Below are positions 42,285-59,569 of a stretch of DNA of 64,000 bases, one piece after another; positions within the stretch are counted from its first letter, which is position 1, and each line of letters begins with the position of its first letter. Made by a program: the position numbers and the translations under genes. The notes under the pieces are model-generated. The model did not search any database. It worked only from the letters and a program-made list of their open reading frames with translations, and was not told the DNA's origin. The DNA is from Sphingopyxis sp. L1A2A (GTDB lineage: Bacteria > Pseudomonadota > Alphaproteobacteria > Sphingomonadales > Sphingomonadaceae): assembly GCF_005502465.1 (NCBI RefSeq), contig NZ_SCOT01000010.1:1-64000 (forward strand), in the 5' to 3' direction.

Positions 42285-42592
42285 ACGCGCACCGAACGCG
42301 ATGCGCTGGCGAGCGACATGGAACAGCTGGCCCCGCTTCCCGTCGTCGCGCTGCACCCCGTGATCATCGCCGACTATCGCGATCAGGTGGCGAAACGGAA
42401 CGCTGCCCGCGCCGAAAACCCCGAAGCGCGCCTGGAAGCGATCCAGAAACTGCGCGGCCTGATTGAAAGCGTCACCGTCCAGCCAAAGACCACCAGCACA
42501 ACGGGCGTGACGATCGAAGGGGCCGGCAGGCTCCATTCCATGCAGGAACTCGCCACCGGCGCGCCCACGCGCGCAACAATATATGGTAACGA
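42285..42592 (+). pseudogene. C-terminal remnant of a large serine recombinase
   Basis: The plus-strand frame reads RTERDALASDMEQLAPLPV, VALHPVIIADYRDQVAKRNA and KLRGLIESVTVQP, the C-terminal coiled-coil tail typical of large serine (resolvase-family) recombinases. There is no catalytic domain, and the SGNH gene ends only 37 bp upstream. The open frame runs on into the tRNA fragment and has no start of its own. It is a leftover of an earlier element at this site. Confidence 0.65.
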
Positions 42593-42637
42593 TGGAGCGG
42601 GCGAAGGGATTCGAACCCTCGACCCCAACCTTGGCAA
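42593..42637 (-). repeat. Island attachment site: 3' fragment of tRNA-Gly(GCC)
   Basis: On the minus strand the sequence runs from TTGCCAA (anticodon loop, GCC) through GGTTGGGGTCGAGG, the T-arm GGTTCGAATCC and the acceptor strand CGCCCGCTCCA, ending at 42593. The D-arm and 5' acceptor strand are absent: beyond 42637 the sequence is unrelated. A 45-bp 3' tRNA end beside an integrase is the classical att core. The intact tRNA should be at the other end of the island, beyond this window. Confidence 0.85.
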
Positions 42638-42756
42638 CTTGCCGTTCTACCTTTTCGATACCTTCCAATACTACGCTATGTCCCTATTTTTCCACTATTT
42701 GTTGAAAATGTATCCGACCTATTGTATCCTGCGGCTGTCCCCTTTTTCCACGAATC

Positions 42757-42803
42757 TGGAGACACATTGGAGACATAGGCGAATTTTGGGGCTGTGTCTC
42801 CAA
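42757..42803. promoter_or_regulatory. Integrase promoter repeats (GGAGACA)
   Basis: TGGAGACA occurs at 42757-42764 and again within TTGGAGACA at 42767-42775, and is repeated inverted as TGTCTCCAA at 42795-42803, immediately before the integrase ribosome binding site. These could be integrase arm sites or an autoregulatory operator. Confidence 0.45.
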
Positions 42804-42815
42804 CAGGAGGTGCGA

Positions 42816-44084: not shown

Positions 44085-44316
44085 TTGCCCGGGCACTCAA
44101 GGTGTTGGCGCCGCGATAGAAAAGCAGCCACCCTCAACCAATTGAATCGTATTTTTCCGAATGGGTCTTGACGGATGCCGAGCAGCGCGTCGACCGCTAT
44201 TCGGAGCGGAAAGACCGCCACGAGCCTGTCATCAAGCCGGCCGAGATGGCGGGTTTTCCGGGGACACGATATTTTTTCCTTCGCCCGTTCAGCCGGTTGG
44301 AATTTCCCCGCACCAA

Positions 44317-44330
44317 CCTGTATAGACGGG
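44317..44330. promoter_or_regulatory. Candidate operator of the HutC-like regulator (site 1)
   Basis: ACCTGTATAGAC (44316-44327) lies 5 bp before the regulator's ATG. The same ACCTGTATANAC string recurs on the other strand upstream of the TonB receptor at 49340-49351. TGTATA-type half-palindromes are typical of HutC-class GntR operators. Confidence 0.5.
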
Positions 44331-44332
44331 TT

Positions 44333-45133
44333 ATGGAATTCAACCCACGCACAGCCAGAAGCGGTTCAAACAATTCAAAAGGTTCAGCCGGTTCCCGGCC
44401 AGACGAAGCCGAGGACAAGGACAGCCGCGCTGCGCCACGCTATGCGGCAATCAAGCAAAGCATTTGCGACGCCGTTCGGGACGGCCACTTAAAGCCCGGC
44501 GACCGTGTTCCTTCGGAAGCTGAACTGGTGCAGCAGTTCGACGTATCGCGCATGACCGCGAACCGGGCCCTCCGCGAGCTGCAGGCTGCGGGCATATTGG
44601 TTCGCCGCGCCGGTAGCGGGTCGTTTATTGCGGAGCCGAAACCGATCGGCCAGATTATCGAAATCCGAAATATAGCGGAAGAGATACGCGAGCGCGGTCA
44701 TGTTTACCGTGCCCGTGTCGTGCAGAATGACGAGATCCGGGCCAATGCCGAAATGGCGGCGCTTTTGGAAGTGCCGGTCGGAACGAAATTGTTCCACTCG
44801 ATCATCGTCCATCACGAAGCGGAATTCCCGATCCAGCTCGAAGAGCGCTTTGTGCTCGCGTCGGCTGCCCCCGACTATGGAAAGATGGACTTCACGCAGA
44901 CGACGCCGAACGAGTATCTGACACAAACCGCGCCGCTCGAACGGGTCGAGCACCGCGTCCGCGCGGAGATGCCCGATGCGCGAACGCACGGCATGCTGGG
45001 GCTGTCGGATGCCGAACCGGTGCTGCGGATGACGCGCCGGACGTGGAGCCACTCACGCCTCGTCAGCCACGCCTGGCTGACGCATCCCGGCTCGCGCTTC
45101 GAACTCTCGGCCGCCTTTTCGATCGACGATTGA
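44333..45133 (+). CDS. GntR family regulator of the HutC type
   Basis: The 266-aa product (ATG 44333) has an Asn/Ser-rich N-terminus, a GntR winged helix (RYAAIKQSICDAVRDGHLKPGD, SEAELVQQFDVSRMTANRAL, RRAGSGSFI at about 35-105), and a UTRA effector domain (IAEEIRERGHVYRARVV to the C-terminus). It closely resembles the histidine-utilisation repressor HutC, but no hut genes are present. It is convergent with the PepSY genes and probably controls them and the TonB receptor. Confidence 0.88.
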   Translation: MEFNPRTARSGSNNSKGSAGSRPDEAEDKDSRAAPRYAAIKQSICDAVRDGHLKPGDRVPSEAELVQQFDVSRMTANRALRELQAAGILVRRAGSGSFIAEPKPIGQIIEIRNIAEEIRERGHVYRARVVQNDEIRANAEMAALLEVPVGTKLFHSIIVHHEAEFPIQLEERFVLASAAPDYGKMDFTQTTPNEYLTQTAPLERVEHRVRAEMPDARTHGMLGLSDAEPVLRMTRRTWSHSRLVSHAWLTHPGSRFELSAAFSIDD

Positions 45134-45143: not shown

Positions 45144-45878
45144 TCAGGCTGTGCTGCGGGTCACCACAGGCTTGCGGCGCCGACGCAACCAGCGGAAATC
45201 GGCGCGGCTGAAGCTTTTGAAGAGCAGATAGAAGCCGGTCCCGGAAAGCCATAGCGCGCCAAAGGCGACGAAGATGATCAGCGGGTGATTGAAGCTCTTC
45301 CGGTTCACATAATCCATATTGTGAAGCATCCAGAAAAAGTCCCATGTCCGCCAGGTATCGCCGCGCATCACGAGGAAGCGCGCCGTATCAAGCGAGACAT
45401 AAGCGCTGCTGTTCTCCGCGTCGGCAAAGTCGACGCGCCACATCGCCCCGTCATGATCGCGCGCTTCGAGGTTCGCCTTGGCGAGTATGCTGACCCTCTG
45501 GATCGGCGCTTCGTTCATCATCGACGCGACCTCGCGCGCCATGCCCTCATCGACGCGCATGTCCTTACCGGTGGTGGCATCAACGAGGCGGATGCCCTTG
45601 GTGGTACGAAGCTCGTAGACCGGCCGGGCGCCGAGATCGCGCAAGAGAACTCCCGTGACAGGTTCGCCGCGCGGCAAGGCGGCGACGTCGAAATATTCGC
45701 CGGCCGGCAAAGGATGCGCATGCGACATCCCGCCGCCGTGTCCGCCGACCTTGTCCTTGTCGAGGAGCGCCATGACCGAGCCGCTCAAGGCCCAGAGCAG
45801 GAACTGGAGTCCGAGGATAAGCCCAACCCATTTGTGGATGCGGCGGAAAAAGAGCGGCGTCAGCCGGATGCGTTTCAT
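45144..45878 (-). CDS. PepSY domain membrane protein (distal)
   Basis: The 244-aa product has an N-terminal membrane segment (RRIHKWVGLILGLQFLLWALSGSVM), a periplasmic region with a His-rich stretch (GGHGGGMSHAHPLP), PepSY-like VSILAKANLEARD, and a second membrane segment (NHPLIIFVAFGALWLSGTGFYLLF) after WMLHNMDYVNR. PepSY-membrane proteins often accompany TonB receptors and are thought to act in metal or siderophore reduction. Its ATG overlaps the stop of the other PepSY gene. Confidence 0.85.
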   Translation of the reverse strand: MKRIRLTPLFFRRIHKWVGLILGLQFLLWALSGSVMALLDKDKVGGHGGGMSHAHPLPAGEYFDVAALPRGEPVTGVLLRDLGARPVYELRTTKGIRLVDATTGKDMRVDEGMAREVASMMNEAPIQRVSILAKANLEARDHDGAMWRVDFADAENSSAYVSLDTARFLVMRGDTWRTWDFFWMLHNMDYVNRKSFNHPLIIFVAFGALWLSGTGFYLLFKSFSRADFRWLRRRRKPVVTRSTA

Positions 45879-46579
45879 GCCGTCTTCTTCTTTCGGCGCT
45901 TGAAGGACCAGATCAGCAGCCAGGCGCCGGTCAACGCCATGGCAAAGGCGCTCCAGGTCGCGACGCGGAGCAGCGGGTTGTTGACGTCGGTCCGCTCGTC
46001 ATAATCCATGATGTGGAGCATCCAGGCAAAGTCGAAGACGCGCCAGAGTGCATGGCGGCGCGAAACCAGCTCGCCCGTCTGCGGCGACAGATAGAGCGTC
46101 GGGCGGTTCCAGCCGGTGAATTCGACCTGCCAATAGGGCGGCTTGCGCGACTGCATTTCCTGCGGCGCCTTGGTCAGCAACCGCACAGACACGATCTGGC
46201 CGTCGCCGGTGTAGATGCGCCGCGCCTGCTCGCGGACCTGGGACTCGGTCAGAGCAGGCAGCGGCGCGCCCGTGCGGGCATCGAACAACCGCGGTCCGTC
46301 GGGGGTTTCGGCCCGCCAGACGGGCGCCTCGGCAAATCGCTGCAAGCGAATTTCTGAAGCCCCGGGAGCGGCCGCGACGATTTTCGACGGCGGCGCCAGA
46401 CCCGACAGGTCGAACGGCCGGGCCGCGGGAGCGTGTACCAGATGGTCGCCGTGAATGGTGTCGATGTGGACAACCACCATATAAAAGCCCGTCAGCGTCC
46501 AGAGCAAAGCCTGGACGCCGACCACCAGGGCCAACCATTTATGCGTTCGCCGTACAAGCAACGGCCAGCGGATAGCCAT
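45875..46579 (-). CDS. PepSY domain membrane protein (proximal)
   Basis: The 234-aa product starts at ATG 46579 (MAIRWPLLVRRTHKWLALVVG); a longer start at 46639 would run back into the receptor gene. It has the same build as its neighbour: N-terminal membrane segment, periplasmic PepSY region (ARRIYTGDGQIVSVRLLTKAP), FDFAWMLHIMDYDERTDVNN, and a C-terminal membrane segment. Two tandem PepSY paralogues suggest a heterodimeric inner-membrane reductase or handling complex for cargo imported by the receptor. Confidence 0.85.
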   Translation of the reverse strand: MAIRWPLLVRRTHKWLALVVGVQALLWTLTGFYMVVVHIDTIHGDHLVHAPAARPFDLSGLAPPSKIVAAAPGASEIRLQRFAEAPVWRAETPDGPRLFDARTGAPLPALTESQVREQARRIYTGDGQIVSVRLLTKAPQEMQSRKPPYWQVEFTGWNRPTLYLSPQTGELVSRRHALWRVFDFAWMLHIMDYDERTDVNNPLLRVATWSAFAMALTGAWLLIWSFKRRKKKTA

Positions 46580-46589
46580 GACGATAGCC

Positions 46590-49292
46590 TCAGAATGCCG
46601 TCCGGAAGCCGACATAGAAGCGGCGCCCAAGCAGGTCATAGGTCATCGTGTCGGTGTTCGCATCGGTAAAGCTCTGGATGTAGGGCGCCTTGCGGTCGAA
46701 GAGATTGTCGACGCCGACCTGGAAACGCGTCTTCTCGTCGATCTCGAACGCAACCTGGAGATTGTGATAGAAGACGTTGGGGGTGCTGTAGCCGATGTCA
46801 CCCGGTGCCGCGTTGAAGTCGGTCGCCTTGCCGATCCACTGGGTCGACCAGGTCGCGCTGACGCCGTCCTTCTCGGCGGTCAGCACACCATAGCCGCGCC
46901 ATTTCGGATAACCGCCGTTGCCGCCGCCGATGAAGCCGTCGAAATCGATCGGTGCGCCGCCCGGGAAGGGCAGCACGACATATTTGTTGAGATAGGTCAG
47001 GTTGACGTCGAACGAGACATTCACGCTGCCGATGTTGTTATTATAGACGAGTCCGAGGTCGAGCCCGTTCATTTCCTCGCGGCCGGTGTTGATCGGCTGG
47101 GCGGACAGGAAGGTGACCTCGCCTGTCAGCGGACTGCGCGTGAAATCTTCGCAGAAGGGATGCGAGAGATTCTGGCTCGCATAGCAGATACCGAGCTTGG
47201 TCGAACCGGGAATGGCGCGGATCGCATCTTTGATCTTGATGTCGAACCAGTCGGCGGTGAGCGACAGGCCCGGAATGAGCCCCTTCGGCGAGATCACGGT
47301 GCCGACGGTCCAGGTCGTCGAGCTTTCGGGCTTCAGATTCTCGTTGCCGCCCACTGTCGTCAGGATCGTCGTACCCAATTGGACATAGTTCGCTGGCACG
47401 CCCGACGCCTGACAATTGGCGATCAGCGTCGCATTGCCGCTCGTCGCATAGCGCGAGCACGGATCGGTCGTGGTCAAATTGCCTTCGGACACGCCGCCGA
47501 ACAGTTCGGGGACGTTGGGAATTCGGAAGCCGGTGCCATAGGTGCCGCGCAGGCGGAAGCTGTCGTTGATGACCCAGTCGAGGCTCGCCTTATAGTTCCA
47601 GTCGCTGCCGAACAGGTCATAGTCCGAATAGCGCACCGCGCCGCCCGCCGTCAGCGCCTGGAAGAAGGGCGCATCGGCAAGGATCGGCACCGACAGTTCG
47701 AGATAGGCCTCCTTCGCGGTGCTCGTTCCGGAGATTGGGTCCTGCTGGTTGGTGTTGGCAATCCCGAGCACCGTCAGCGGATCGGGATCGCGCCAGCCCT
47801 TTTCCTTGCGATAGACGACACCCGCCGCGAAGGAGACGGGCCCCGCAGGCAGCTTGAACAGATCGCCGTTGAGATCGGCCGTGAACGTCGCGAGCTCGTT
47901 GCCGCCTCGGTCGCGCGAGGTGAAGAGGATATAATCGAGAACCTCGGGCGTCAGATCGCCGAAGCCGAGATAATCGGCGCACGGAATCGAAGCGCCCGCG
48001 GCCAGGCTACATTTGCTGGTGTCGAGCGTGTTGGCGACGCGCTCGAGATTGGCGATGTTGGTCGACCCGTCGACCGCGGTATTGCGGCCGAAGCTGCCCG
48101 CGACTTCCCAGCCCCAGTCGTTCGACAGCTTGCCGCGCAGTCCAAAGGTGCCCTGCCAGGTATCGGTTTCCTGAAAGAACTGGCGCGCACCCGGTTCGGC
48201 GAGGCGGCGCTGGATGAGGACGATATTCTGGCCGGTCGGGTTGGTGGGGTTGCTCGCCGCGATCGACAGGTTGCGCAGCGTGCCGGGCGTCGCGATCTGG
48301 TTCGACTTGCGGAACGTGTAAAGGAATTCGCCGAACGCCTCGATATTGTCGGTCAGGTCATAGTCGGCGAAGAAGGCGGTGCTGACGCGCTCGACGGGGC
48401 TGACGGCGTTGAGGAACGGGGCCGAATTGAAATTATGCTTCGCCGCGCTGTAGGGCTCGAAGAAATTTCCGTTGCCGCCGAGCACCTGGTTGAAGTTGAT
48501 TTGCTGGCCGTTCGGCAGCACCGCGCGTCCGCCGATCGTCGATGCGCTGTTGACGCAGCCAAGTGTGCCGGGGGTGGTTTCGGCCAGCGAACAGGGCGCG
48601 CGGGTCGCCATGTTTACGGCGCTGGTCTTCTGGTAGGTTACCGCGGCCATGAAACCGCCGCGGTCGTTGCGCATGCCCCAGATCAGGTCTGCGGTGAAAT
48701 CCGAGCCATCACCCTTTTCGGTGATCCCCTGCCGCGCGCTGATCCCAAGACCTTCATAGTCGGTCCGGGTGACGAGGTTGACGACGCCCGCCATCGCATC
48801 GGCGCCATAGATCGCCGACGCGCCGTCCTTGAGGACGTCGGTGCGCGCGAGCGCGACGACCGGGATCATGTTGAGGTCGGGCGACGAGTTCGCGCCCGTG
48901 CCGCCGGCGACGAGGCGGCGGCCGTTGAGCAGCACGAGGGTGCGCTTGATGCCGAGACCACGCAGATTGACCTGCGCGGTGCCGTAGCCGTTGCCAGTCC
49001 AGTAGGCCGAAGTCTGGTTGCCCGCGAAGCCCGCATTGGCGGGGAGGCGCTGCAGCACCGTCTCGATATTCACGACCCCGGTGTTCTCGATCTGCTCGGC
49101 CGAAACGACCGTCGCCGGCCCAACGCCCGCGAGATCCTGCCGGCGGATACGCGACCCGGTCACCACGATATCGCTGCCGCTGCTCGCGCTATCCGCTCCG
49201 GCCTCGGGTGCCGACTCGCTTTGAGCGAGGGCTGGCGCCGAAACGCCCGCAAAAACCGCAGCGCCGGCAAGCAAAACTGTCCTGAACTTCAT
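46590..49292 (-). CDS. TonB-dependent receptor of the PepSY operon
   Basis: The 900-aa outer-membrane receptor has a signal peptide (to about 24, APALAQ), TonB-box-like DIVVTGSRIRR at about 44-54, a plug (VNLRGLGIKRTLVLLNGRRL; LKDGASAIYGADAMAGVVNLV) and a C-terminal RRFYVGFRTAF. AGAAGGGGG is the ribosome binding site. It heads an operon with two PepSY genes, and a TGTATATACA operator-like site lies about 50 bp upstream. The ligand is probably a metal chelate, which is inferred from the PepSY context. Confidence 0.92.
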   Translation of the reverse strand: MKFRTVLLAGAAVFAGVSAPALAQSESAPEAGADSASSGSDIVVTGSRIRRQDLAGVGPATVVSAEQIENTGVVNIETVLQRLPANAGFAGNQTSAYWTGNGYGTAQVNLRGLGIKRTLVLLNGRRLVAGGTGANSSPDLNMIPVVALARTDVLKDGASAIYGADAMAGVVNLVTRTDYEGLGISARQGITEKGDGSDFTADLIWGMRNDRGGFMAAVTYQKTSAVNMATRAPCSLAETTPGTLGCVNSASTIGGRAVLPNGQQINFNQVLGGNGNFFEPYSAAKHNFNSAPFLNAVSPVERVSTAFFADYDLTDNIEAFGEFLYTFRKSNQIATPGTLRNLSIAASNPTNPTGQNIVLIQRRLAEPGARQFFQETDTWQGTFGLRGKLSNDWGWEVAGSFGRNTAVDGSTNIANLERVANTLDTSKCSLAAGASIPCADYLGFGDLTPEVLDYILFTSRDRGGNELATFTADLNGDLFKLPAGPVSFAAGVVYRKEKGWRDPDPLTVLGIANTNQQDPISGTSTAKEAYLELSVPILADAPFFQALTAGGAVRYSDYDLFGSDWNYKASLDWVINDSFRLRGTYGTGFRIPNVPELFGGVSEGNLTTTDPCSRYATSGNATLIANCQASGVPANYVQLGTTILTTVGGNENLKPESSTTWTVGTVISPKGLIPGLSLTADWFDIKIKDAIRAIPGSTKLGICYASQNLSHPFCEDFTRSPLTGEVTFLSAQPINTGREEMNGLDLGLVYNNNIGSVNVSFDVNLTYLNKYVVLPFPGGAPIDFDGFIGGGNGGYPKWRGYGVLTAEKDGVSATWSTQWIGKATDFNAAPGDIGYSTPNVFYHNLQVAFEIDEKTRFQVGVDNLFDRKAPYIQSFTDANTDTMTYDLLGRRFYVGFRTAF

Positions 49293-49339
49293 GGCGAAAC
49301 CCCCTTCTGGTTGCGTTATGCACCGGAGAGAGCATCAAA

Positions 49340-49351
49340 TGTATATACAGG
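49340..49351. promoter_or_regulatory. Candidate operator upstream of the TonB receptor (site 2)
   Basis: TGTATATACA is a perfect 10-bp palindrome (49340-49349). With the flanking GGT it reads ACCTGTATATAC on the minus strand, matching the site before the HutC-like regulator (ACCTGTATAGAC) at 11 of 12 positions. Confidence 0.55.
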
Positions 49352-49501
49352 TCAACAGAAAATTGTCTTAAAGATCAATATCTTAGATGAAGATACACGA
49401 CCCATAGCCGGTGAGTATAATACGCACCCGAAGCATCTACCCCTCACCGGAAAATGACTTTTTTTTGATGTCGCGCCTCGGCGCCCCAAATTGGCCCCGC
49501 C

Positions 49502-50020
49502 CTAAGCGGAAAAGATCGACGCCTTGCCCTGCATGTCGAACGCCATCACATCGAAAGCGTCCTGGCTCCCATCGGGCATTTCCATGCCCGGCGAGCCCCG
49601 CGGCATGCCGGGAACGGCGATCCCCCGGATGTTGCGCGGCTTGTCACGGAGCAGCTTTGCGACATGCGGCATCGGCACATGACCTTCGATCGCATAGCCG
49701 GCAACGATCGCGGTGTGGCACGACGCCAGGTCGGGCGGAGCGCCATAGCGTTCCTTCACTGCGGCCATGTCAGCGCGACTCTCGACAGTCACGTTATAGC
49801 CAGCCTTGCGTGCGATATCGGCCCACGCCTCGCAGCAGCCGCATTCGGGGTCGCGGTAAACGAGCATCGCCTGGCTCCCGCCGCTGCTTGCCGGCAAAGC
49901 GGCCCCCGCCGTATCCGTTCCGGCAGCAGGCCGCCGATCGCATCCAACAAGCGCGGCACCGCCTGCAACGGCGAACAAGCCAAGAAGGCTTCGCCGGCTG
50001 TAATTTGAGGTCGGCGTCAT
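49502..50020 (-). CDS. DUF411 metal-binding protein
   Basis: The 172-aa product (ATG 50020, overlapping the DUF305 stop as ATGA) has a twin-arginine-like start (SRRSLLGLFAVAGGAALVGC) whose Cys could also serve as a lipobox. The DUF411 body has the metal motif DPECGCCEAW at about 60-69, then APPDLASCHTAIV and GHVPMPHVAKLL. DUF411 proteins accompany copper- and silver-resistance genes and probably bind the metal in the periplasm. Confidence 0.88.
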   Translation of the reverse strand: MTPTSNYSRRSLLGLFAVAGGAALVGCDRRPAAGTDTAGAALPASSGGSQAMLVYRDPECGCCEAWADIARKAGYNVTVESRADMAAVKERYGAPPDLASCHTAIVAGYAIEGHVPMPHVAKLLRDKPRNIRGIAVPGMPRGSPGMEMPDGSQDAFDVMAFDMQGKASIFSA

Positions 50021-50460
50021 TTTCGGTCCAATATTCGCTTCATCTGGTCGATCTCTGCCTTTTGGCCCGCAATGATGCCGCGGCACAATTCAAGCACCTC
50101 GGGGTCCGAGAGGCGGGCTTGCTCGCACATGAGGACAGCGCCCGAATGATGCGGGATCATCGACCGCAGGAAGGCCTGGTCGCCGATCGTGGTCTGCGTG
50201 CGAATGAGCCCGAAGCTGCCAAAGAAGGCGAGCGCCGCTCCGCCCAAAAGGAGGATGTTTCGGCGCTTGTCAGGAAACATGTCGGGCATGGCGATGATCA
50301 TCAGGACGACCATCGGCGCCACCATCATGAGCGTCATATAGGCCATGTTGAGATTGTTGTAGAAGCTCGACAGACGATCAATCATCACGAACATGACGAG
50401 ATACATGATAACGGCGCCGACGAGCGTTTGCCAGGCGAGGCTTCGATAAGCTGACTTCAC
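50017..50460 (-). CDS. DUF305 membrane protein
   Basis: The 147-aa product starts with GTG at 50460, directly after ATAGGAGAATTGCC. Three membrane segments (TLVGAVIMYLVMFVMI, MTLMMVAPMVVLMIIA, ILLLGGAALAFFGSFGLI) precede a DUF305 segment, FLRSMIPHHSGAVLMCEQA at about 105-123. The HH pair and the Met/Cys residues are plausible copper ligands. Upstream in-frame codons to 50592 are inside the copB leader and were not used. Confidence 0.87.
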   Translation of the reverse strand: MKSAYRSLAWQTLVGAVIMYLVMFVMIDRLSSFYNNLNMAYMTLMMVAPMVVLMIIAMPDMFPDKRRNILLLGGAALAFFGSFGLIRTQTTIGDQAFLRSMIPHHSGAVLMCEQARLSDPEVLELCRGIIAGQKAEIDQMKRILDRK

Positions 50461-50492
50461 GGCAATTCTCCTATCTGTTGCCCCGCCGCGAG

Positions 50493-51695
50493 TTAGAACC
50501 AGACCCGCACCCCTGCGACCAGGCTGACGCTGCTTGGGTCTTCCCCTGCGGCCCGCGTGAAACGGGCCGTATCGCCGACCTTGCGTTCCCATTCGACTCC
50601 GACATAGGGGGCGAATTCCTTGACGATTTCGTAACGCAGGCGCAGCCCGAGCTCCACGTCGGACAAGCCGGACCCGACCCCGATTTCGGGAACATCTTGT
50701 AACGCGAAATTCAGCTCGGCTATCGGCTGGAGGATCAGTTTCTGGGTGATGCGCTGGTCATAATAGCCTTCAAGCCGGCCGTGCAGATCGCCCTTGTTCG
50801 ACAAGAACAGGGCGCCCTCGACCTCGAACCAATAGGGCGCGAGCCCCTCGAAGCCCACTGTCGCATAGGTGCGATCGGGACCGGGTCCGAGATCCTGCCG
50901 AATGCCGGCCTGGGCGTTGAAATAGGGGCCGACGGCACGGCTGTAGAGCAATTGCGTCTCGGTGCCTTCGATGCCCTCGCCAAAAACCCCCTCGCCTTCG
51001 CTTTTGACGGTGAGCCGATTGATATCGCCACCATACCAGGCTTCGCCGTCCCAGCGAAAGCCGTCATGCCCTTTGCGCGCCTGATATTCGGCGAGGTTGA
51101 AACTGATGAAGGCGATTTTCTGCGCGCCATTTTCTTCCATCATCGCATGGCGCGAATGCTCCATTTCGGCCTTGGGATAGATGCGGTCGGCATACCAGTC
51201 GCTGGGCGGCGCCGGCGCGGCGGCATCGCCCGGAGGCAAGTCGGTGCCGCTCGCCCCGCCCATTCCGGCCATGCCTTCCATCGGTTCCATCGACGCGTCC
51301 TTCGGCGTGCAATGGCCCATCTTGGCATGTTCGGGCGGACAGTCGGGATCGGCCGGGGCCACCGTGCCTTGGTCCATCGCGCCCATGTCCGGCATTTCCG
51401 CGCTCGAGCCGTTGTCCGAAGACTTTGCCTCGGGCGTGCAATGGCCCATCGCCGCATGCTCGGGAGCGCAACTTGCATCCTTGGGTTTCATATCCATGCC
51501 GCCATGATCCATCTCGGGCATCGGCGCGGGTTCGGATTGCGGCGGCGGAGCCGGCTGCGGCTTGGCAGCTGGCTTCTTCGGCTCGGCCGGCATGGTCATG
51601 CCCGGCATCGACGAATGATCCATCGACTGCGCGGTGGCGGGAACGGCGAAAGCGAGCGCGGCGGTGCCGGCGAGGAAAAGCGAAGCGCGGGTCAT
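50493..51695 (-). CDS. copB: Copper resistance protein B
   Basis: Outer-membrane copper-binding protein, 400 aa. It has a signal peptide (to about 22), a long Met/His-rich N-terminal half (MDHSSMPGMTMP, EMDHGGMDM) with two copies of the motif Cx-PEH-AxMGHCTP, and a C-terminal barrel of CopB type (WYADRIYPKAEMEHSRHAMMEE; VEWERKVGDTARF). Its ATG overlaps the copA stop (ATGA). It is probably transcribed from the ECF promoter before copA. Confidence 0.93.
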   Translation of the reverse strand: MTRASLFLAGTAALAFAVPATAQSMDHSSMPGMTMPAEPKKPAAKPQPAPPPQSEPAPMPEMDHGGMDMKPKDASCAPEHAAMGHCTPEAKSSDNGSSAEMPDMGAMDQGTVAPADPDCPPEHAKMGHCTPKDASMEPMEGMAGMGGASGTDLPPGDAAAPAPPSDWYADRIYPKAEMEHSRHAMMEENGAQKIAFISFNLAEYQARKGHDGFRWDGEAWYGGDINRLTVKSEGEGVFGEGIEGTETQLLYSRAVGPYFNAQAGIRQDLGPGPDRTYATVGFEGLAPYWFEVEGALFLSNKGDLHGRLEGYYDQRITQKLILQPIAELNFALQDVPEIGVGSGLSDVELGLRLRYEIVKEFAPYVGVEWERKVGDTARFTRAAGEDPSSVSLVAGVRVWF

Positions 51696-53542
51696 GCCGC
51701 GTCTCCCTTCGGACGGACGCTGACGACGCGCATCATCCCGGCGTGCATATGGTAGAGCATATGACAGTGGAACGCCCAGTCACCGAGCGCGTCGGCGGTG
51801 AAATCGAAGCTGGCGGTGCCTCCGGGCTGAACGAGAACCGTATGCTTGCGCGGCGAGCGATCGCCCTTGCCCGTGACCAGTTCGAAGAAATGGCCATGGA
51901 GGTGGATGGGATGGCTCATCATCGAATCGTTGATGAGGTTGATCCGCACCCGCTCACCCTCGATGAAGGGGATCGGCTCATGATGGTCGGACATCTTGAC
52001 GCCATCGAACGACCACATGAACCGCTCCATATTGCCGGTCAGATGAATGTCGAGCGAGCGTTCGGCGGCGCGCACATCGGGATTGCGCTCGAGCGCCACC
52101 AGATCATGATAGGTGAGCACCTTGTGCCCGACATTTTCGAGCCCCTGCCCCGGCTCGCCCATGCGATCGACCGGCATCGGCGAGATGGTCTGGACACTCG
52201 GGTCGCGTTTGACCTGCGGGGCGACGTCGAAATCGCGCATGCTGTGCTGCATTCCGCCACCCGATCCATGATCCATCCCCGCCATCGCGCCGCCTTCGGC
52301 CGCGGGCGTGCAATGGCCCATCTTGGCATGTTCGGGCGAGCAGGCAGGATCGCTTGCGGGCATTGGCATGGCCCCCGTGGCGCCACCGCCCGAATGGTCC
52401 ATTCCCGCCATGGAACCGCCTGACATGTCCATGTCGCCCATCCCCATGTCCTTCATGGTCGCGAGCGGGCGTTCGCGCAGCGGCGGGACGTCGGCGGCCA
52501 TGCCGGCGCGCGGCGCAAGCGTCGCACGCCCCATGCCCGAGCGGTCGTTGGCTTCGGCGACAAGCGTATAGGCGCGGTCCTCGACCGGCGTGACAATGAC
52601 ATCGTAAGTTTCCGCAACGGCGATCTGGAACTCGTCGATTTCGGTTGGGACGACGTTGAGCCCGTCGGCCTGCACGACGGTCAGCCTGAGGCCCGGAATG
52701 CGCACGTTGAAGATCGTCATCGCCGAGGCGTTGATGATCCGCAGCCGCACCCGCTCGCCGGGATTGAAGAGCGCGGTCCAATTGTCGCGCGGGCCATGGC
52801 CGTTGACGAGGAAGCTATAGGTCGATCCGTTGACATCGGCGACGTCGGTCGGATCCATGCGCATCTTGCCCCATTCGATGCGTTCCTTCAGTGATTGGTC
52901 CTTGCCGGCCAGGAGACCGGAAAGCGTCTGTCGCTGCATGTTGAAATGGCCGGGGTTGACCTTCAACTTGCGGAAGATCGCCTCGGGAGACAATTGGCTG
53001 TGGTCGGACAGGACGACGACATGCTCGCGGTCAAAGCCGATCGGATCGGGACCTGCGGGATCGATGACGATCGGGCCATAATGGCCAAGCTGCTCCTGCA
53101 GTCCCGAATGGCTGTGATACCAATAGGTCCCCGACTGGACGACGGGGAATTCGTAAACGAAGTTTGAGCGCGGCTTGATGCCGGGGAAGCTGACGCCCGG
53201 GACGCCATCCATCTGGAACGGCAGGATTAGGCCATGCCAATGGATCGAGCTGTCCTCGTCGAGATCGTTGACGACCGTGAGGCGCGCGGTCTGGCCTTCC
53301 TTCAGGCGAACGAGCGGCGCGGGCACCGTCCCGTTGATCCCGATCGCTCGGCTGACCTTGCCGTCGATCCGCATCGTCTGGCGCGCGATACGAAGGGTGA
53401 TGTCATTGCCCGACACCGTCGGCAGCGGCGCGACGATGCCTGGCGACACCGATTGGGCCCACGCCGGAAACCAGGGCGCCAGCGCGGCCACTGTCCCGCC
53501 GCCCAATGCACCCGTCACGAAACGACGCCTGTCTATCTGCAT
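51692..53542 (-). CDS. copA: Copper resistance multicopper oxidase CopA
   Basis: Periplasmic multicopper oxidase, 616 aa, with a Tat signal (DRRRFVTG at 4-11). Copper sites: HWHG at 101-104, YWYHSHSG at 140-147, HPIHLHGHFFE and HCHMLYHMHAGM near the C-terminus. A Met/His-rich insert in the middle (MKDMGMGDMDMSGGSM) includes one copy of the C-x-PEHAKMGHCTP motif also found twice in CopB. It oxidises or sequesters Cu(I). An ECF-type promoter lies 32 bp upstream. Confidence 0.95.
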   Translation of the reverse strand: MQIDRRRFVTGALGGGTVAALAPWFPAWAQSVSPGIVAPLPTVSGNDITLRIARQTMRIDGKVSRAIGINGTVPAPLVRLKEGQTARLTVVNDLDEDSSIHWHGLILPFQMDGVPGVSFPGIKPRSNFVYEFPVVQSGTYWYHSHSGLQEQLGHYGPIVIDPAGPDPIGFDREHVVVLSDHSQLSPEAIFRKLKVNPGHFNMQRQTLSGLLAGKDQSLKERIEWGKMRMDPTDVADVNGSTYSFLVNGHGPRDNWTALFNPGERVRLRIINASAMTIFNVRIPGLRLTVVQADGLNVVPTEIDEFQIAVAETYDVIVTPVEDRAYTLVAEANDRSGMGRATLAPRAGMAADVPPLRERPLATMKDMGMGDMDMSGGSMAGMDHSGGGATGAMPMPASDPACSPEHAKMGHCTPAAEGGAMAGMDHGSGGGMQHSMRDFDVAPQVKRDPSVQTISPMPVDRMGEPGQGLENVGHKVLTYHDLVALERNPDVRAAERSLDIHLTGNMERFMWSFDGVKMSDHHEPIPFIEGERVRINLINDSMMSHPIHLHGHFFELVTGKGDRSPRKHTVLVQPGGTASFDFTADALGDWAFHCHMLYHMHAGMMRVVSVRPKGDAA

Positions 53543-53573: not shown

Positions 53574-53602
53574 TCATACGCGGCACGATCGTCCGCCCCT
53601 CA
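53574..53602 (-). promoter_or_regulatory. ECF-type promoter of copAB
   Basis: On the minus strand TGAGGGG (53602-53596) and CGCGTATGA (53582-53574) are separated by 13 bp. The same two blocks with the same spacing precede the cnrY-like gene, and close variants precede copC and the copper ATPase gene. Confidence 0.75.
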
Positions 53603-53641
53603 CCCTCGCAGGCGAAAATCGCCAAATGTCCCGCGCTGCGT

Positions 53642-54226
53642 TTACTCCGCCGCGTGGGTGGTCGTTTCGCCCAGCAGAGCCTTCAATTTCGCACGGGCCC
53701 GGTGAAGCCGCGTCTCCACGGTCTTTTCGCTGACTTGCAGCAGCTCGGCGGTTTCCAACTGGCTTAGATCCTCAACGCCGCGAAGGATGAGGACCTCGCG
53801 CAGATTGGGCGCTAGGCGGGACATGGCGGCGCGAACGCGCTCCAGTTCGGTGCGGTCTGCCGCCTCGGCGTCGGGCGCGGGGCCTTCACTCGCGACATCG
53901 TGCGCGCTTTCGAGGGGCAGGGCGCGAGAGAAAAAAGACCGAACCGCACGCCGCCGCGCCCAGTCGCGGCATTTGTTGAGCGCGATACGGGATATCCAGA
54001 CCTGGAAGGGCCGGTCGGCGTCATAGCGGCCAAGCGCCCCAAAGCCCGCGACAAAGCTTTCCTGCGTCAGGTCCATCGCCTCGTCGGGGTCGCCGATATT
54101 GTTGCGGATCAGGCGAAACACGGGCGCCTTGTAGCGACTGAGAAATTCCCGATAGGCCTGCTGCTGTCCTGCCCGGGCAAGTGCGGCGAGCTCGCGATCG
54201 CTACATTGCGCGAGATCGAGGCTCAC
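53642..54226 (-). CDS. ECF sigma factor (CnrH-like)
   Basis: RNA polymerase sigma factor of the extracytoplasmic-function group, 194 aa. Region 2 (AYREFLSRYKAPVFRLIRNN, DAMDLTQESF-like pattern, FQVWISRIALNKCRDWARRR) and region 4 (MSRLAPNLREVLILRGVEDL, SEKTVETRLHRARAKLK) are clear. The gene order, anti-sigma-like, CnrX-like sensor, then sigma, is that of cnrYXH from Cupriavidus. It overlaps the sensor gene by 4 bp (ATGA). It is likely to recognise the TGAGGGG-N13-CGCGTATGA promoters. Confidence 0.92.
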   Translation of the reverse strand: MSLDLAQCSDRELAALARAGQQQAYREFLSRYKAPVFRLIRNNIGDPDEAMDLTQESFVAGFGALGRYDADRPFQVWISRIALNKCRDWARRRAVRSFFSRALPLESAHDVASEGPAPDAEAADRTELERVRAAMSRLAPNLREVLILRGVEDLSQLETAELLQVSEKTVETRLHRARAKLKALLGETTTHAAE

Positions 54227-54666
54227 CGCGCATCGGCGGTCAGCGCCTTGACCACGCTCTTGTCGAACATCGCGGCCTGGTCGCGATCAAGAACGACGCG
54301 CATCGCGAACAGATGCTGGAGCGTTTCCTTCTGCAATTCGCCCATCACGCGGTGGGTCTCGTCGATCGCCTCGGTGACGCGGGGTCCATAGCCATGCTCG
54401 GCTTCGATCGCCTGCGCGAGCCGGATATTGGCGGCGCGCATATCGAGCTCGAGCGCATCGCGCCGCTCGGCGAATTTCGCCTCGATCCGGTCGATCTTTA
54501 CCTGCTGCGCGGACGAGAGTTTCAGCTCCCGATGCAGCAAAGCGTGCAGCTCGGTCTCGCTTGCGCGCGGTGTCTCGACGATGAGCCGCCCGGCGAGCAC
54601 ACCGGCGAGCGCGGCGATGAAAGCGACCAGACCGAAAAGCAGCAAACGGCGCGACGACGTCATCAT
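54223..54666 (-). CDS. CnrX-like periplasmic metal sensor
   Basis: The 147-aa product has one N-terminal membrane anchor (RRLLLFGLVAFIAALAGVLAGRL) and a helical periplasmic domain. The nickel/cobalt ligands of CnrX (H42, H46, E63, H119, M123) have equivalents at the same spacing: H41, H45, E62, H118 and M122. In CnrX, metal binding releases the sigma factor via the anti-sigma CnrY. Here the neighbours are copper genes, so the metal sensed may be Cu. Confidence 0.85.
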   Translation of the reverse strand: MMTSSRRLLLFGLVAFIAALAGVLAGRLIVETPRASETELHALLHRELKLSSAQQVKIDRIEAKFAERRDALELDMRAANIRLAQAIEAEHGYGPRVTEAIDETHRVMGELQKETLQHLFAMRVVLDRDQAAMFDKSVVKALTADAR

Positions 54667-54926
54667 CGCGAATCCAGGAGGGTCGAGGGGGCCAGCGGGC
54701 TGGCCGGAATGAGCGGCGTGATCGGGCTCGCGGCCACGGCCGGCGGAACGATGGCGCTGCCGACGAAGAAACCGCCGCCGAGCGAGACGAAAGCGGCGAG
54801 CGCCATCATGCGCCGCATCGCCGACGCCTCGCGCAGCCGTGCCGACAGCGCGACGAGGACACGCTCGTCGAGCGTGTCCAGTGCGCTCGGCACCTTCGCT
54901 TCATTCAAAATCCGGAGTTCGTCCAT
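54663..54926 (-). CDS. CnrY-like membrane anti-sigma factor
   Basis: The 87-aa product starts at ATG 54926 after AGGAAAGG. It has a short cytoplasmic N-terminus (MDELRILNEAKVPSALDTLDERVLVALSARL) that could clasp the sigma factor, one membrane segment (MRRMMALAAFVSLGGGFFVGSAIV), and a Pro/Ser-rich periplasmic tail. This build and its position before the CnrX-like gene match CnrY, although sequence similarity is not obvious. It overlaps the next gene by ATGA. Confidence 0.78.
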   Translation of the reverse strand: MDELRILNEAKVPSALDTLDERVLVALSARLREASAMRRMMALAAFVSLGGGFFVGSAIVPPAVAASPITPLIPASPLAPSTLLDSR

Positions 54927-54954
54927 CGGCCTTTCCTGCCAGTCCATCCATAGA

Positions 54955-54983
54955 TCATACGCGCATGATCCCATCACCCCTCA
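54955..54983 (-). promoter_or_regulatory. ECF-type promoter of the cnrYXH-like operon (autoregulation)
   Basis: TGAGGGG (54983-54977), 13 bp, CGCGTATGA (54963-54955) on the minus strand, about 29 bp before the anti-sigma start. Both blocks are identical to those before copA while the spacer sequences differ. Confidence 0.78.
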
Positions 54984-55013
54984 GAAATAATCCAACAACG
55001 CGAAACCAATTTG

Positions 55014-55042
55014 TGAGGGCCGCGCGGCTGGTTTGCGTATTA
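55014..55042 (+). promoter_or_regulatory. ECF-type promoter of copCD
   Basis: TGAGGGC (55014-55020), 13 bp, TGCGTATTA (55034-55042), 29 bp before copC. It differs from the copA promoter by one base in the -35 block and two in the -10 block, and lies back to back with the cnrY promoter. Confidence 0.72.
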
Positions 55043-55071
55043 GCAGGACAGACCCGCAATTGGAGGTTTTA

Positions 55072-55455
55072 ATGTTCAAGTCGTTTCTCCCCTCTGTCAC
55101 CGCGGCCGTAGCGCTGCTTCTCGTGCCGGGCGTCGCAAGCGCCCACACCAAGCTCGTCGGCTCGACGCCGGCCGCGAATTCAACGGTTTCGAAGGTGACT
55201 TCGGTCAATTTGCAGTTCAACGAGAAGGTTATCGCCTCGACGGTGAAGGCCGAACTGGTGATGACCGGGATGCCCGGCATGGCCAATCACGCTCCGATGA
55301 AGATCCCCACCACGTCCATGATGGGCAAGGGCGGCAAATCGATGATGCTGATGGTCAAGCGCGCGCTCGTTCCCGGCACCTATAAGGTCAAATGGTCGGC
55401 TGCGGGCGCCGACACGCACCGCATGGGTAGCGAATTCAGCTTCACCGTGAAGTAA
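55072..55455 (+). CDS. copC: Copper resistance protein C
   Basis: Periplasmic copper carrier, 127 aa, with a signal peptide (to about 23, VASA) and the mature N-terminus AHTKLVGSTPAANS, whose His1 is the Cu(II) ligand in CopC. The Met/His-rich MTGMPGMANHAPM and the C-terminal DTHRMGSEFSF follow the CopC fold. GGAGG precedes the ATG. It is followed 7 bp later by copD. Confidence 0.95.
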   Translation: MFKSFLPSVTAAVALLLVPGVASAHTKLVGSTPAANSTVSKVTSVNLQFNEKVIASTVKAELVMTGMPGMANHAPMKIPTTSMMGKGGKSMMLMVKRALVPGTYKVKWSAAGADTHRMGSEFSFTVK

Positions 55456-55462
55456 AAAGAAG

Positions 55463-56404
55463 GTGGCAGATCTCCTGCTGATGGGTGTCAGGTTCGCGCT
55501 GTTCGCGAACCTGATGCTTATTGCGGGGCTTGCCGCTTTCTCACTTTATGCGCTCGGATCCGACGAACGGACGTCAGGCGTCGGAGCGCTCTTCGGGCGC
55601 CCGCAGTTTGGGCTCTGCGTCTCGGGCCTGATCCTGTCCTTTGCCGGCATGGCGTTGTTGACCGCGAGCATGCAGGGCGTCGGGGTCCTCGCTATCGACC
55701 CCGAGATGTTTCTGACGATGGTCCGGGAGACCGACGTCGGCACCGCATGGCTTGTGCGCATGTTCGCGCTGCTGGTCGCCGGGGCGGCGAGCTTCTGGCT
55801 TGGCCGCAATCCCGTCGCTGCGGCATCGGTCCTGAGCGTCGCCGGCTCGGCCGGGCTGGCAACATTGGTCTGGTCGGGCCACGCCGGCGCGTCCGAAGGT
55901 ATCGTCGGCACCGTGCATCGCGCCAATGACGCGATCCATATGATTGCCGCAGCCGTCTGGTTCGGTGCGATTGCCGCCTTTCTGCTGCTCCTTCGCCCCG
56001 GCGACCCACCTGGGACGGAAAGGCTCGCGCTTGCCGCGCGAAGCCTCGACCAGTTCGCGCGCGTCGGGACGCTGTGCGTGCTCGTGATCGCCGCGACCGG
56101 ACTGGTGAACAGCCAGATTATCATCGGAGTCGAGAATGTCGGGCGATCGATCGTCTCGCCTTATGGTCAGCTTCTCGTCGCCAAGCTCATCCTTTTCGCC
56201 GCGATGCTCGCCCTCGCCGCGGTCAACCGCTGGCGACTTACGCCGGCGTTGCAGGCATCGGTCGCCAGCCCCGACGAAATAGGCGCCGATTCGAGTCTCG
56301 CCGTGTCGGCGATGCGCCGCAGCCTCGTGCTCGAAGCGTCCGCGGGACTTGCCATTCTCGCGCTGGTCGCATGGTTCGGAACATTGGAACCCTTTGCCGA
56401 TTGA
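55463..56404 (+). CDS. copD: Copper resistance protein D (CopD family)
   Basis: Inner-membrane protein of 313 aa with about eight predicted membrane segments and conserved histidines (GHAG, VHRANDAIHMIAAAVWFG). It works with CopC in copper import to the cytoplasm or across the inner membrane. It starts with GTG after AAAAGAAG. The C-terminal VNRWRLTPALQ-like segment is typical of CopD. Confidence 0.92.
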   Translation: MADLLLMGVRFALFANLMLIAGLAAFSLYALGSDERTSGVGALFGRPQFGLCVSGLILSFAGMALLTASMQGVGVLAIDPEMFLTMVRETDVGTAWLVRMFALLVAGAASFWLGRNPVAAASVLSVAGSAGLATLVWSGHAGASEGIVGTVHRANDAIHMIAAAVWFGAIAAFLLLLRPGDPPGTERLALAARSLDQFARVGTLCVLVIAATGLVNSQIIIGVENVGRSIVSPYGQLLVAKLILFAAMLALAAVNRWRLTPALQASVASPDEIGADSSLAVSAMRRSLVLEASAGLAILALVAWFGTLEPFAD

Positions 56405-56437
56405 CGGGGTCCGGGTGGCAGGAGGAAAGCACGAGCG

Positions 56438-57013
56438 ATGTCAGATTCGCAGGACAGGAACCCAAGATTTACGCCTGCGGCCGGCTATCATTTCCTCACG
56501 CCTTTCTACGACGCCGGCGTCGCGATCACGACGCGCGAGCGCCGGTGGCGCGGCCGGCTGGTCGAGCTTATGGCGCCGGCGCCCGACGACATCATTCTCG
56601 ATGTGGGTTCGGGCACCGGCAATCTCGCGTTGGCGATCGCGCGGCGCGGCGGAGGCGCGCGCTATCTCGGGATCGATCCAGACGATGCTGCCACCCGAAT
56701 CGCACGCGAGAAGACAGCCCGGCTCTCGCCCCAGCCGGACTTTCGCGTCGGATTCTTCACGGCCGCGAGCATCGTCGGCTGGCCGATGCCGACCAAAGTC
56801 ACAATCTGCCTCGTTCTTCATCAGGTCGGCCTCGCCGAAAAGGCCCGCCTGCTCCGCGAGGCCTGGCTTTGCCTCGCACCTGGCGGGCAACTTTATATCG
56901 CGGATTATGGCGAGCAGCGCAGCCGCCTGATGCGGATCCTGTTCCGGCTGACGATCCAGCAGCTGGACGGCCGATGGCTGTCTACCGGCGCTCATCGGCG
57001 AAGCGGGATTTGA
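56438..57013 (+). CDS. SAM-dependent methyltransferase, frameshifted near the C-terminus
   Basis: The 191-aa reading has the SAM motif ILDVGSGTGNLALAIA at about 46-61, GIDPDDAATRIAR and PGGQLYIADYG, so it is a class I methyltransferase; in related copper islands one often follows copD. The frame ends in STGAHRRSGI, but one base away the DNA continues LPALIGEAGFETLCEEPA and GAISIMSARKPMA, a natural methyltransferase C-terminus stopping at 57092. This suggests an indel at about 56973. Possibly inactive. Confidence 0.75.
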   Translation: MSDSQDRNPRFTPAAGYHFLTPFYDAGVAITTRERRWRGRLVELMAPAPDDIILDVGSGTGNLALAIARRGGGARYLGIDPDDAATRIAREKTARLSPQPDFRVGFFTAASIVGWPMPTKVTICLVLHQVGLAEKARLLREAWLCLAPGGQLYIADYGEQRSRLMRILFRLTIQQLDGRWLSTGAHRRSGI

Positions 57014-57110
57014 GACTTTATGCGAGGAGCCGGCGTTGAAGACGTTGACGGGCGCAATTTCGATCATGTCTGCGCGCAAACCCATGGCCTGAGGCGTATG
57101 AGCAAAAGCG

Positions 57111-57139
57111 CGAGGGCCTGGCCTTCTGGCTGCGTATCA
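57111..57139 (+). promoter_or_regulatory. ECF-type promoter of the copper ATPase gene
   Basis: CGAGGGC (57111-57117), 13 bp, TGCGTATCA (57131-57139), 109 bp before the ATPase start and just after the natural methyltransferase end. It shares the copC variant TGCGTAT. Confidence 0.6.
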
Positions 57140-57247: not shown

Positions 57248-59569
57248 ATGCAGGAAGATCATCACGCGGCGGTCGAGGATAACGCAACGGTCGATCCGGT
57301 TTGCGGCATGACGGTGAATCCCGCAACAACGTCGCATCGCGCGACCCACGCGGGCTTGGACCATTATTTCTGCAGTGCGGGCTGCCTTGCCAAATTCGAG
57401 GCCGACCCCGAGCGCTACGCGGCAACGCGGGAAGCGGCACCGGCGATTGCCCCCGAGGGCGCGATCTGGACCTGCCCGATGCACCCGGAGATCCGGCGCT
57501 CCGGCCCCGGAAGCTGCCCGATCTGCGGCATGGCGCTCGAACGCGTCATGCCCGAAGCGGTCGCGGGGCCGAGCGAAGAATATCGCGACATGCGACGTCG
57601 TTTCTGGATCGGGCTCCTGCTCGCCCTTCCGGTGCTCGCGCTCGAGATGGGCGGCCATCTGACCGGCCTTCATCAATATGTAGACCGCTCGACGAGCAAC
57701 TGGATTCAGATGTTGCTGGCGACGCCCGTCGTTCTGTGGGCGGGCTGGCCCTTCTTCGAGCGGGCATGGCTCTCGGTCCGAAACAAGAGCCTCAACATGT
57801 TCACCCTCATTGCGATGGGGACGGGCGTAGCCTGGGCCTACAGCATGGTCGCGGCCCTCCTGCCCGGGATATTCCCCGGTGCGTTTCGCGCCGCCGACGG
57901 TTCGGTCGCGGTCTATTTCGAAGCGGCAGCCGTTATCACGGTGCTTGTCCTGCTGGGACAGGTGCTCGAGCTCAGGGCGCGCGAGACGACAAGCGGCGCA
58001 ATCCGCGCACTTCTCGACTTGACGCCCAAGCTTGCGAGGCGGGTGCGCGGCGACGGGAGCGACGAGGAAGTCGCACTTGAGGATGTCGCGGTCGGTGATG
58101 TGCTGCGCATCCGTCCGGGCGAGAAGGTCCCGGTCGACGGCATCGTGGTCGAAGGCCGCGGCACGGTCGATGAGTCGCTGGTCACGGGCGAATCGATGCC
58201 CGTCACAAAGGAGGCCGGCGCCGCGCTGATCGGGGGAACGATCAATCAGACGGGCGGGCTGCTGATGCGCAGCGAGAAGGTCGGCCGCGACACGATGCTC
58301 GCCCGCATCGTGCAAATGGTTGCCGACGCGCAGCGCAGCCGGGCGCCGATCCAGCGCCTCGCCGACACCGTTTCTGGCTGGTTCGTTCCCGGCGTCATCG
58401 CCGTTGCTGTTGCTGCGTTTATCGTCTGGTCGCTTCTCGGACCGGCGCCCGCGATGGCCTATGGCCTGATTGCGGCCGTCTCGGTGCTGATCATCGCCTG
58501 TCCCTGTGCGCTCGGCCTCGCAACGCCAATGTCGATCATGGTTGGCGTCGGACGCGGCGCCGAAGCCGGGGTGCTGATCAAGAATGCCGAAGCGCTCGAA
58601 CGAATGGAAAAGGTCGATACGCTCGTCGTCGACAAGACGGGGACCCTTACCGAGGGCAAGCCCTCGGTCGTTGCCATCGAAGTCGCAGATGGGTTCGACG
58701 AAAATGACCTGCTCGCGATCGCAGCCAGCCTCGAGCGCAGCAGCGAGCATCCTCTTGCGCTCGCGATCGTCAAGGCGGCCGAGGAGCGGGGTCTCGCGCT
58801 CGTCGAGCCTTCAGGGGTCGATCAGCCGGTGGGCAAAGGGATCGTCGGCTCGGTCGAAGAGAAGGCGATTGTCCTCGGCAATGCTGCCTTTCTTGAAGAA
58901 TATGACGTTGACCTCGCCGGGCTTGCCGCGGCGGCCGACCGTCTTCGCGCCGAGGGCGCGACCGCGATCTATATCGCCGTCAACGGCCAAGCGGCCGGCG
59001 TCATCGCGATTGCCGATCCCGTCAAGGCAACGACAAGCGAAGCCCTCTCTGCCCTGCGCGCCGCGGGCATAAGGGTCATCATGCTGACCGGCGACAATCG
59101 CGTCACCGCCGAGGCGATCGCGCGGCGCCTCGGTATTGCCGATGTCGAGGCCGATGTCCTGCCGGACCAGAAGAGCGCCGTCGTCCAGCGGCTCCGCGCA
59201 GAAGGCCGGATCGTCGCCATGGCGGGGGACGGGGTCAACGACGCGCCCGCGCTCGCCGCCGCCGATGTCGGCATTGCGATGGGCTCGGGAACCGACGTCG
59301 CGATCGAAAGCGCGGGCGTCACGTTGCTGCGCGGCGATCTTCTCGGCATCGTTCGGGCGCGGCACCTCAGCCATGCGACGATGTCGAATATCCGGCAGAA
59401 TCTCTTCTTTGCCTTCGCCTATAATGTTGCGGGCATCCCGATCGCAGCGGGCGCGCTCTACCCGCTGTTCGGACTTCTTCTATCGCCGATCATCGCCGCT
59501 GCCGCGATGGCGCTCTCCTCGGTCAGCGTCATCGCCAATTCGCTGCGGCTGCGATTCGTGAAAATCTGA
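57248..59569 (+). CDS. Copper-exporting P1B-type ATPase
   Basis: Inner-membrane Cu(I) exporter, 773 aa. The N-terminus carries a YHS domain ([10 protein letters not shown] at about 16-25, FCSAGC at 41-46) and a heavy-metal-binding domain ([11 protein letters not shown]... CPICGMAL at 76-97) instead of classic CxxC HMA domains. The metal-transport CPC is at 418-420, DKTGT at 462-466, and [10 protein letters not shown] near the C-terminus, all intact. AGGAGA precedes the ATG. Confidence 0.96.

Follow-up and report, generated by a model that had tools for sequence, protein, structure and literature searches.

A CnrH-type promoter and a predicted copper-resistance regulon in Sphingopyxis sp. L1A2A and its relatives

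The copper region and its promoter sites

Positions 1 to 64,000 of contig NZ_SCOT01000010.1 of Sphingopyxis sp. L1A2A (assembly GCF_005502465.1), the whole of which is called the window here, contain a copper-resistance region in which a gene for an extracytoplasmic function (ECF) sigma factor is surrounded by copper genes. Its layout is copB-copA (minus strand), the sigma factor gene, a gene for a CnrX-like periplasmic sensor and a gene in the position of cnrY (minus strand), copCD (plus strand), a methyltransferase-like gene and a copper ATPase gene (plus strand). The promoter sites discussed below match the consensus YGAGGGS-N13-YGCGTATNA and are named CnrH-type after the sigma factor CnrH of Cupriavidus metallidurans. 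These predicted sites and the regulatory genes are as follows.

49418..49446, minus strand: predicted CnrH-type promoter upstream of the TonB-receptor gene, TGAGGGG-N13-TGCGTATTA
53574..53602, minus strand: predicted CnrH-type promoter upstream of copA; probable transcription start (+1) at 53568 by the cnr rule (see below), leader 26 nt
54955..54983, minus strand: predicted CnrH-type promoter upstream of cnrY-cnrX-sigma; probable +1 at 54949, leader 23 nt to the ATG at 54926
55014..55042, plus strand: predicted CnrH-type promoter upstream of copC-copD; probable +1 at 55048, leader 24 nt
57111..57139, plus strand: predicted CnrH-type promoter upstream of the copper ATPase gene; predicted leader about 103 nt
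53642..54226, minus strand: CnrH-like ECF sigma factor; best PDB sequence 4cxf, CnrH, E 1.5e-33
54223..54666, minus strand: CnrX-like periplasmic sensor (Metal_resist, PF13801), in which the residues at CnrX positions H42, H46, E63, H119 and M123 are kept
54663..54926, minus strand: CnrY-position protein, probable anti-sigma factor, with one hydrophobic segment; the start at 54926 was chosen by us, since the mechanical open reading frame (ORF) extends to 54977 and overlaps the promoter

The original prediction had named four such sites, before copA, the cnrY-position gene, copC and the ATPase gene. Their coordinates, strands and 13-base spacing are all correct, with no mismatch to the consensus, and the copA and cnrY sites are indeed the same at all 16 specified bases. 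The count itself was too low by one, as a fifth exact site, 49446-49418 on the minus strand, had been overlooked; it lies 125 bp upstream of the TonB-receptor start at 49292, with a predicted leader of about 120 nt. The five exact matches in the window compare with none in each of 400 dinucleotide-preserving shuffles, and the looser GAGGG-N15-GCGTAT reaches a mean of 0.035 per shuffle of this kind. When the spacer of RAGGG-Nx-CGTA was varied from 12 to 21, five matches fell at N16, one at N17 and none elsewhere. A search of the window tolerating up to three mismatches proved uninformative (21 matches against 14.8 expected, not clearly above chance).

With the S position left free, the consensus matches the organism's own 3.7-Mb genome eight times and the reversed control never. 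All eight matches, seven of which also satisfy the S, lie at two paralogous copper loci: the five of the window, and three in a second module on contig C11, where they precede copA, cnrY and copC and where the sigma factor (C11:29135-29689) is 79 % identical to that of the window. The shorter pattern RAGGG-N16-CGTAT gives 12 matches in this genome versus nine for the reversed control; nine of the 12 read GCGTAT and precede copper-module genes. It adds a site at C11:18021, about 125 bp upstream of a TonB receptor 90 % identical to that of the window, and therefore both modules have TonB, copA, cnrY and copC sites, four of them on C11. From this common promoter code, cross-activation between the two modules appears likely. 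The three other matches to the shorter pattern read CCGTAT and are not promoter-like: by mechanical ORFs, one falls within an rpsH-like gene, one within a different long ORF and one where two ORFs converge with their 3' ends. Two one-mismatch matches (C11:66441 and C47:5392) have no match to the copper-region proteins of the window in the 3 kb around each.

The genes that the sites of the window precede, and their neighbours, are listed here.

51692..53542, minus strand: copA, multicopper oxidase (TIGR01480)
50493..51695, minus strand: copB (PF05275)
49502..50592, minus strand: DUF305 and DUF411 genes, downstream of copB
46590..49292, minus strand: TonB-dependent receptor, followed by two PepSY_TM-like genes (45144-46639)
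55072..55455, plus strand: copC
55463..56404, plus strand: copD
57248..59569, plus strand: copper-type P-type ATPase with YHS and HMBD domains

The TonB receptor may be under a second control. In its leader, at 49332-49355 on the minus strand, stands the block TTGACCTGTATATACA[T/A]TTGATGC with its palindrome TGTATATACA; the block does not vary among the leaders of eight relatives and the C11 copy. A HutC-type GntR regulator gene (44168-45133, plus strand; TIGR02018 above cut-off) adjoins the receptor and the two PepSY genes, an arrangement also found on Sphingopyxis indica pMC4, and this regulator, together with the leader block, is a candidate for such a control. Near the TonB end, a tyrosine-recombinase-like gene (42318-44084, plus strand), whose matches are below curated cut-offs, possibly marks an island border.

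Match to mapped CnrH promoters and conservation among relatives

The start sites of the CnrH-controlled promoters cnrYp and cnrCp of Cupriavidus have been mapped (PMC9045368). Placed on pMOL28, with +1 in brackets, they read CAAGGGGGAGTCCTTCGCGCAGCCGTATAAGAGGC(A) and CGAGGGGAAGCATCGACCTGGTCCGTATAGAGAGG(G), and thus follow the pattern RAGGG-N17-CGTAT-N7-(+1), with +1 eight nt past the last T and leaders of 24 and 25 nt. The blocks of the window are the same RAGGG and CGTAT, with N16 instead of N17 between them, and for copA, cnrY and copC the cnr rule for +1 predicts leaders of 26, 23 and 24 nt, respectively. A related Cupriavidus cnr-like locus carries the blocks twice at N17, while in three copper-gene regions of Caulobacteraceae plasmids the distance is N16 or N17. 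Since the blocks are those of mapped CnrH promoters, this is probably a CnrH-type promoter and not a new motif; as judged by its sequence, the kind of promoter is known, and what is unusual is the predicted copper output. The earlier statement on the novelty of this sequence therefore has to be narrowed to copper, the sequence being that of cnrYp and cnrCp with one base less between the blocks.

A search of the genome collection with the sigma protein returned 18 loci, of which 13 (L010-L022) encode sigma factors 62–98 % identical to that of the window. They are not all independent because L010 hardly differs from the window, and L020 hardly from L021. L010 itself is a 5.3-kb contig of a Novosphingobium bin with proteins 98–100 % identical to those of the window, which reflects either recent transfer or misbinning. 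Exact GAGGG-N15-GCGTAT sites are found before copA in 13/13 of these loci, before cnrY in 12/13 and before copC in 9/13, and the remaining five sites have AAGGG. A TonB receptor of at least 88 % identity is encoded in eight of the loci and preceded by a site in all eight (seven exact, one with GCGTAA). An ATPase of at least 77 % identity occurs in six, with an exact site in L015, the AAGGG form in L019-L021 and none in L013 and L022. The other five loci (L023-L027, sigma 28–32 % identical) were set aside, as the other proteins of the window are unmatched there and motif-like matches are only scattered.

The spacing is equally constant across the family. In 30 short sigma loci, one being that of the window and three being near-copies of one another, exact GAGGG and GCGTAT blocks are separated by N15 in 61 cases (58 in the 29 relatives) and never by N10-14 or N16-20; with one mismatch allowed, N15 yields 80 matches and other spacers 0 to 6. 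In 40 family regions of up to 20 kb each, which overlap partly with the 30 short loci, RAGGG-N15-GCGTA occurs at 123 sites, and 38 of the 40 regions have at least one site before a module gene. Among the 98 sites that precede module genes, 25 are before copA, 25 before copC, 35 before cnrY or cnrX, five before the TonB-receptor gene, four before the ATPase gene and one before each of four other genes. The bases flanking the blocks are also biased, as shown by the 137 AGGG-N16-CGTA sites that these regions contain: T and G precede AGGG in 77 and 85 %, a T is found two bases past GAGGG in 59 %, Y and G precede CGTA in 94 % each and T follows it in 75 %. Placed before copper units and the sigma operon with a fixed spacer throughout the family, the motif has, as had been proposed, the features of a promoter associated with ECF sigma factors of this type.

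The other 25 sites have no match to a window protein behind them. Pfam scans of one or more downstream ORFs for 24 of them (one site had no ORF) gave 14 matches and ten blanks. The matches are to DUF411 (four), DUF305 (three) and, once each, DUF2231, DUF6152, PepSY_TM, cytochrome c, an epimerase, an outer-membrane efflux protein (L131) and, weakly, Metal_resist. The proposal would have been undermined by a motif that is as common at random positions or before non-metal genes; at random positions it is not, while a few sites do precede genes not known as metal genes.

The blocks might instead form the operator of a copper-responsive DNA-binding regulator such as CueR or CopR, and MerR-type or two-component genes are in fact present at some loci. 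This is very improbable, as the two blocks lack symmetry, are those of mapped CnrH promoters and point toward a mapped module gene at 98/123 sites. Moreover, the distance from block to start codon is 19-37 nt in 23/25 copC cases and 32-59 nt in 20/25 copA cases of the 40 regions, and sigma-70-type promoter matches in the region do not exceed those in shuffles (1 vs 1.8). Still less credible, to the point of being nearly negligible, is that the motif has been kept through block inheritance of a copper island, with no shared function. It is true that the module is present on many plasmids and that some regions (L162-L169) are near-copies. However, the sequence between the blocks varies from site to site and between most genomes while blocks and spacing stay constant, and different genes within one locus are each preceded by a site. 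As a sequence, the promoter and its regulon are real, conserved and well above chance.

At the junction between sigma and copA, a site is found within -40 to +150 of the sigma stop codon for 60 of 74 located sigma genes. In 26 of these 60 (e.g., L100, L120-L122, L158), the -35 block TGAGGG overlaps the end of the sigma gene, which has the TGA of the block as its own stop codon; near-copies among the junction cases are L139 and L162-L169. As to distribution, 66 plasmid records hold a relative of the window sigma factor (E <=1e-15). They come mostly from Sphingobium, Sphingomonas and Novosphingobium, and 34 of them are predicted to be conjugative.

The sigma factor, its sensor and the inducing metal

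Among PDB sequences, the sigma factor is closest to CnrH (4cxf, E 1.5e-33; the next is SigW at 7e-19) and the sensor to NccX/CnrX (E 6.6e-17). The CnrY-position protein is of the expected place and size, with one hydrophobic span, and it is on position, size and span that its relation to CnrY as a probable anti-sigma factor rests. When 298 family genomes were scanned with YRAGGG-N14-YGCGTATNA, 108 matches were obtained in 75 genomes, compared with 33 for the reversed control (a manual count). At least 90 of the 108 have a listed CnrX homologue no more than 20 kb away, against 0.64 predicted from genome length. The figure of 90 is a lower bound because the list of CnrX matches is incomplete; genome G089, for instance, is counted as far although its CnrX adjoins the site. 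By the same listed CnrX matches, 65 genomes have both motif and CnrX, ten the motif alone, 56 CnrX alone and 167 neither (Fisher p 1.7e-21). The motif is strongly associated with the CnrYXH-type module. A sigma search at E 1e-30 gave no match in 30 of the 75 motif-bearing genomes. Regions from 20 of these 30 were inspected, and 16 of them carry a diverged CnrH-like sigma factor (33–48 % identical to that of the window; in pieces in L172) and CnrX beside copper genes.

It is the nature of the signal that leaves most room for another explanation. The promoters and sigma factor may work as proposed, with a sensor that answers nickel and cobalt or several metals and with the copper genes as a multi-metal output. 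In 78 homologue rows of the sensor (CnrX excluded, one row being a Cupriavidus cnr-like protein), H42, H46 and E63 are kept in 77/77 that have a residue there and H119 and M123 in 78/78, so that these positions are unchanged in every homologue possessing those columns. These five positions are the metal ligands of CnrX. Signalling by CnrX to Co(II) and Ni(II) is reported to require Met123 (PMC7689651). The full nickel/cobalt set of residues is present, and copper sensing is therefore inferred from the regulon alone. On the other side, most of the assigned downstream genes are copper genes, and the genes behind the Caulobacteraceae plasmid sites bear the annotations copper-binding protein, P-type ATPase and copA. 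In place of cnrCBA nickel/cobalt efflux genes, the module of the window adjoins copper genes; one outer-membrane efflux gene (L131) is under a site, no dedicated search for nickel pumps having been made. On balance, a nickel/cobalt or multi-metal sensor is unlikely, and copper is most likely the inducing signal.

Several observations weigh against a CnrYXH-type module with copper resistance as its output. Nothing in the sensor, with its nickel/cobalt residues, points to copper, and the match of the CnrY-position protein to the CnrY profile is weak (hhalign probability 15 %). The spacer is one base shorter than in the mapped CnrH promoters, so identical recognition is not proven. At the +1 predicted by the cnr rule a purine is present in 56 % of the 137 sites, against 78 and 77 % one and three bases later; there is thus no clear start signal at that position. 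For 14 of the 74 located sigma genes, the interval from -40 to +150 relative to the stop codon holds no motif. In the strict scan, 18 of the 108 matches are not near a listed CnrX, and the 56 genomes with a listed CnrX alone have no strict match. Of the 20 inspected regions, L180 combines sites and copper genes but lacks a sigma factor, L174 has a sigma match of 29 % but neither CnrX nor copper genes, and in L176 and L179 all three are absent. In the other ten genomes of that group, seven have no listed CnrX near the site and three have one.

A proposed copper circuit and its relation to known systems

Taking these points into account, we assign a probability of roughly 80 % to a CnrYXH-type signalling module with copper resistance as output, in which the sigma factor drives a TGAGGG-N14-YGCGTAT regulon and forms a positive loop. 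By analogy with CnrYXH, the CnrX-like periplasmic sensor and the single-span CnrY-like membrane protein would keep the ECF sigma factor inactive until metal binding by the sensor in the periplasm causes the membrane protein to free it (PMC7689651 for CnrYXH). The freed sigma factor would steer RNA polymerase to the TGAGGG-N14-YGCGTAT promoters, the predicted targets being its own operon, copAB, copCD, the copper ATPase gene and the TonB-receptor operon. Because the sigma operon would be under its own promoter, a positive loop is expected. We infer the use of the sites by the sigma factor and its release from the anti-sigma factor, as well as the start sites and the inducing metal. More tentatively, and at slightly less than even odds, a CnrX with nickel/cobalt residues would have turned into a copper sensor across an alphaproteobacterial clade, the choice of metal being set outside these residues or by periplasmic supply, with the two modules of this genome sharing one code and cross-activating. 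In the tree built to order copper and nickel-cobalt control in time, the deep forks, including the attachment of CnrH, lack resolution and the outgroup branches are long.

The paradigm is CnrYXH of C. metallidurans pMOL28, with which the module shares the gene order Y-X-H, the closest PDB sequences of sigma factor and sensor, the RAGGG and CGTAT blocks, the leader length as predicted here and a site for the sigma operon itself. It differs in its probable output, copper resistance instead of CnrCBA nickel/cobalt efflux, in N16 instead of N17, in the G before CGTAT (C or T in cnr) and in a barely similar CnrY. PMC7563307 reports that CnrH serves the cnr locus only. CorE of Myxococcus xanthus is an ECF sigma factor with copper genes as targets, as predicted for the present system, and a multicopper oxidase and an ATPase are among them (PMC3107203, PMC10141476). 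It is reported, however, to sense copper by its own Cys-rich C-terminal domain and no anti-sigma factor was found, in contrast to the CnrX/CnrY pair; the sigma factor of the window lacks such a domain, its region 4 ending at residue 181 of 194 and leaving a 13-residue tail without Cys. SigF-NrsF of Caulobacter crescentus is likewise an alphaproteobacterial, copper-induced ECF system, copper induction being a prediction in our case; By its published description, SigF has NrsF as its anti-sigma factor and controls DUF692, DUF2282 and DoxX genes instead of copABCD (PMC8224329). SigAb of Acinetobacter is a metal-responsive ECF sigma factor with a small CnrY-like anti-sigma factor, as is predicted here, but its promoter is GTCAAC + CGTT and metal genes belong to its indirect regulon (PMC12153292).

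In a search confined to open-licence literature, which makes for a weak negative and may have missed a published group motif, no paper was found that ties a CnrH-type sigma factor or promoter to copper. The predicted use of a CnrH-type promoter for copper, in sphingomonads and in three Caulobacteraceae plasmids, would be new. The module offers a candidate regulator, together with a promoter code, for the copper resistance of sphingomonads and of many plasmids that they carry, and it would link this resistance to a signalling family described, in the accessible literature, for nickel and cobalt. It also raises the question of how two sensors with the same metal-site residues could answer different metals.

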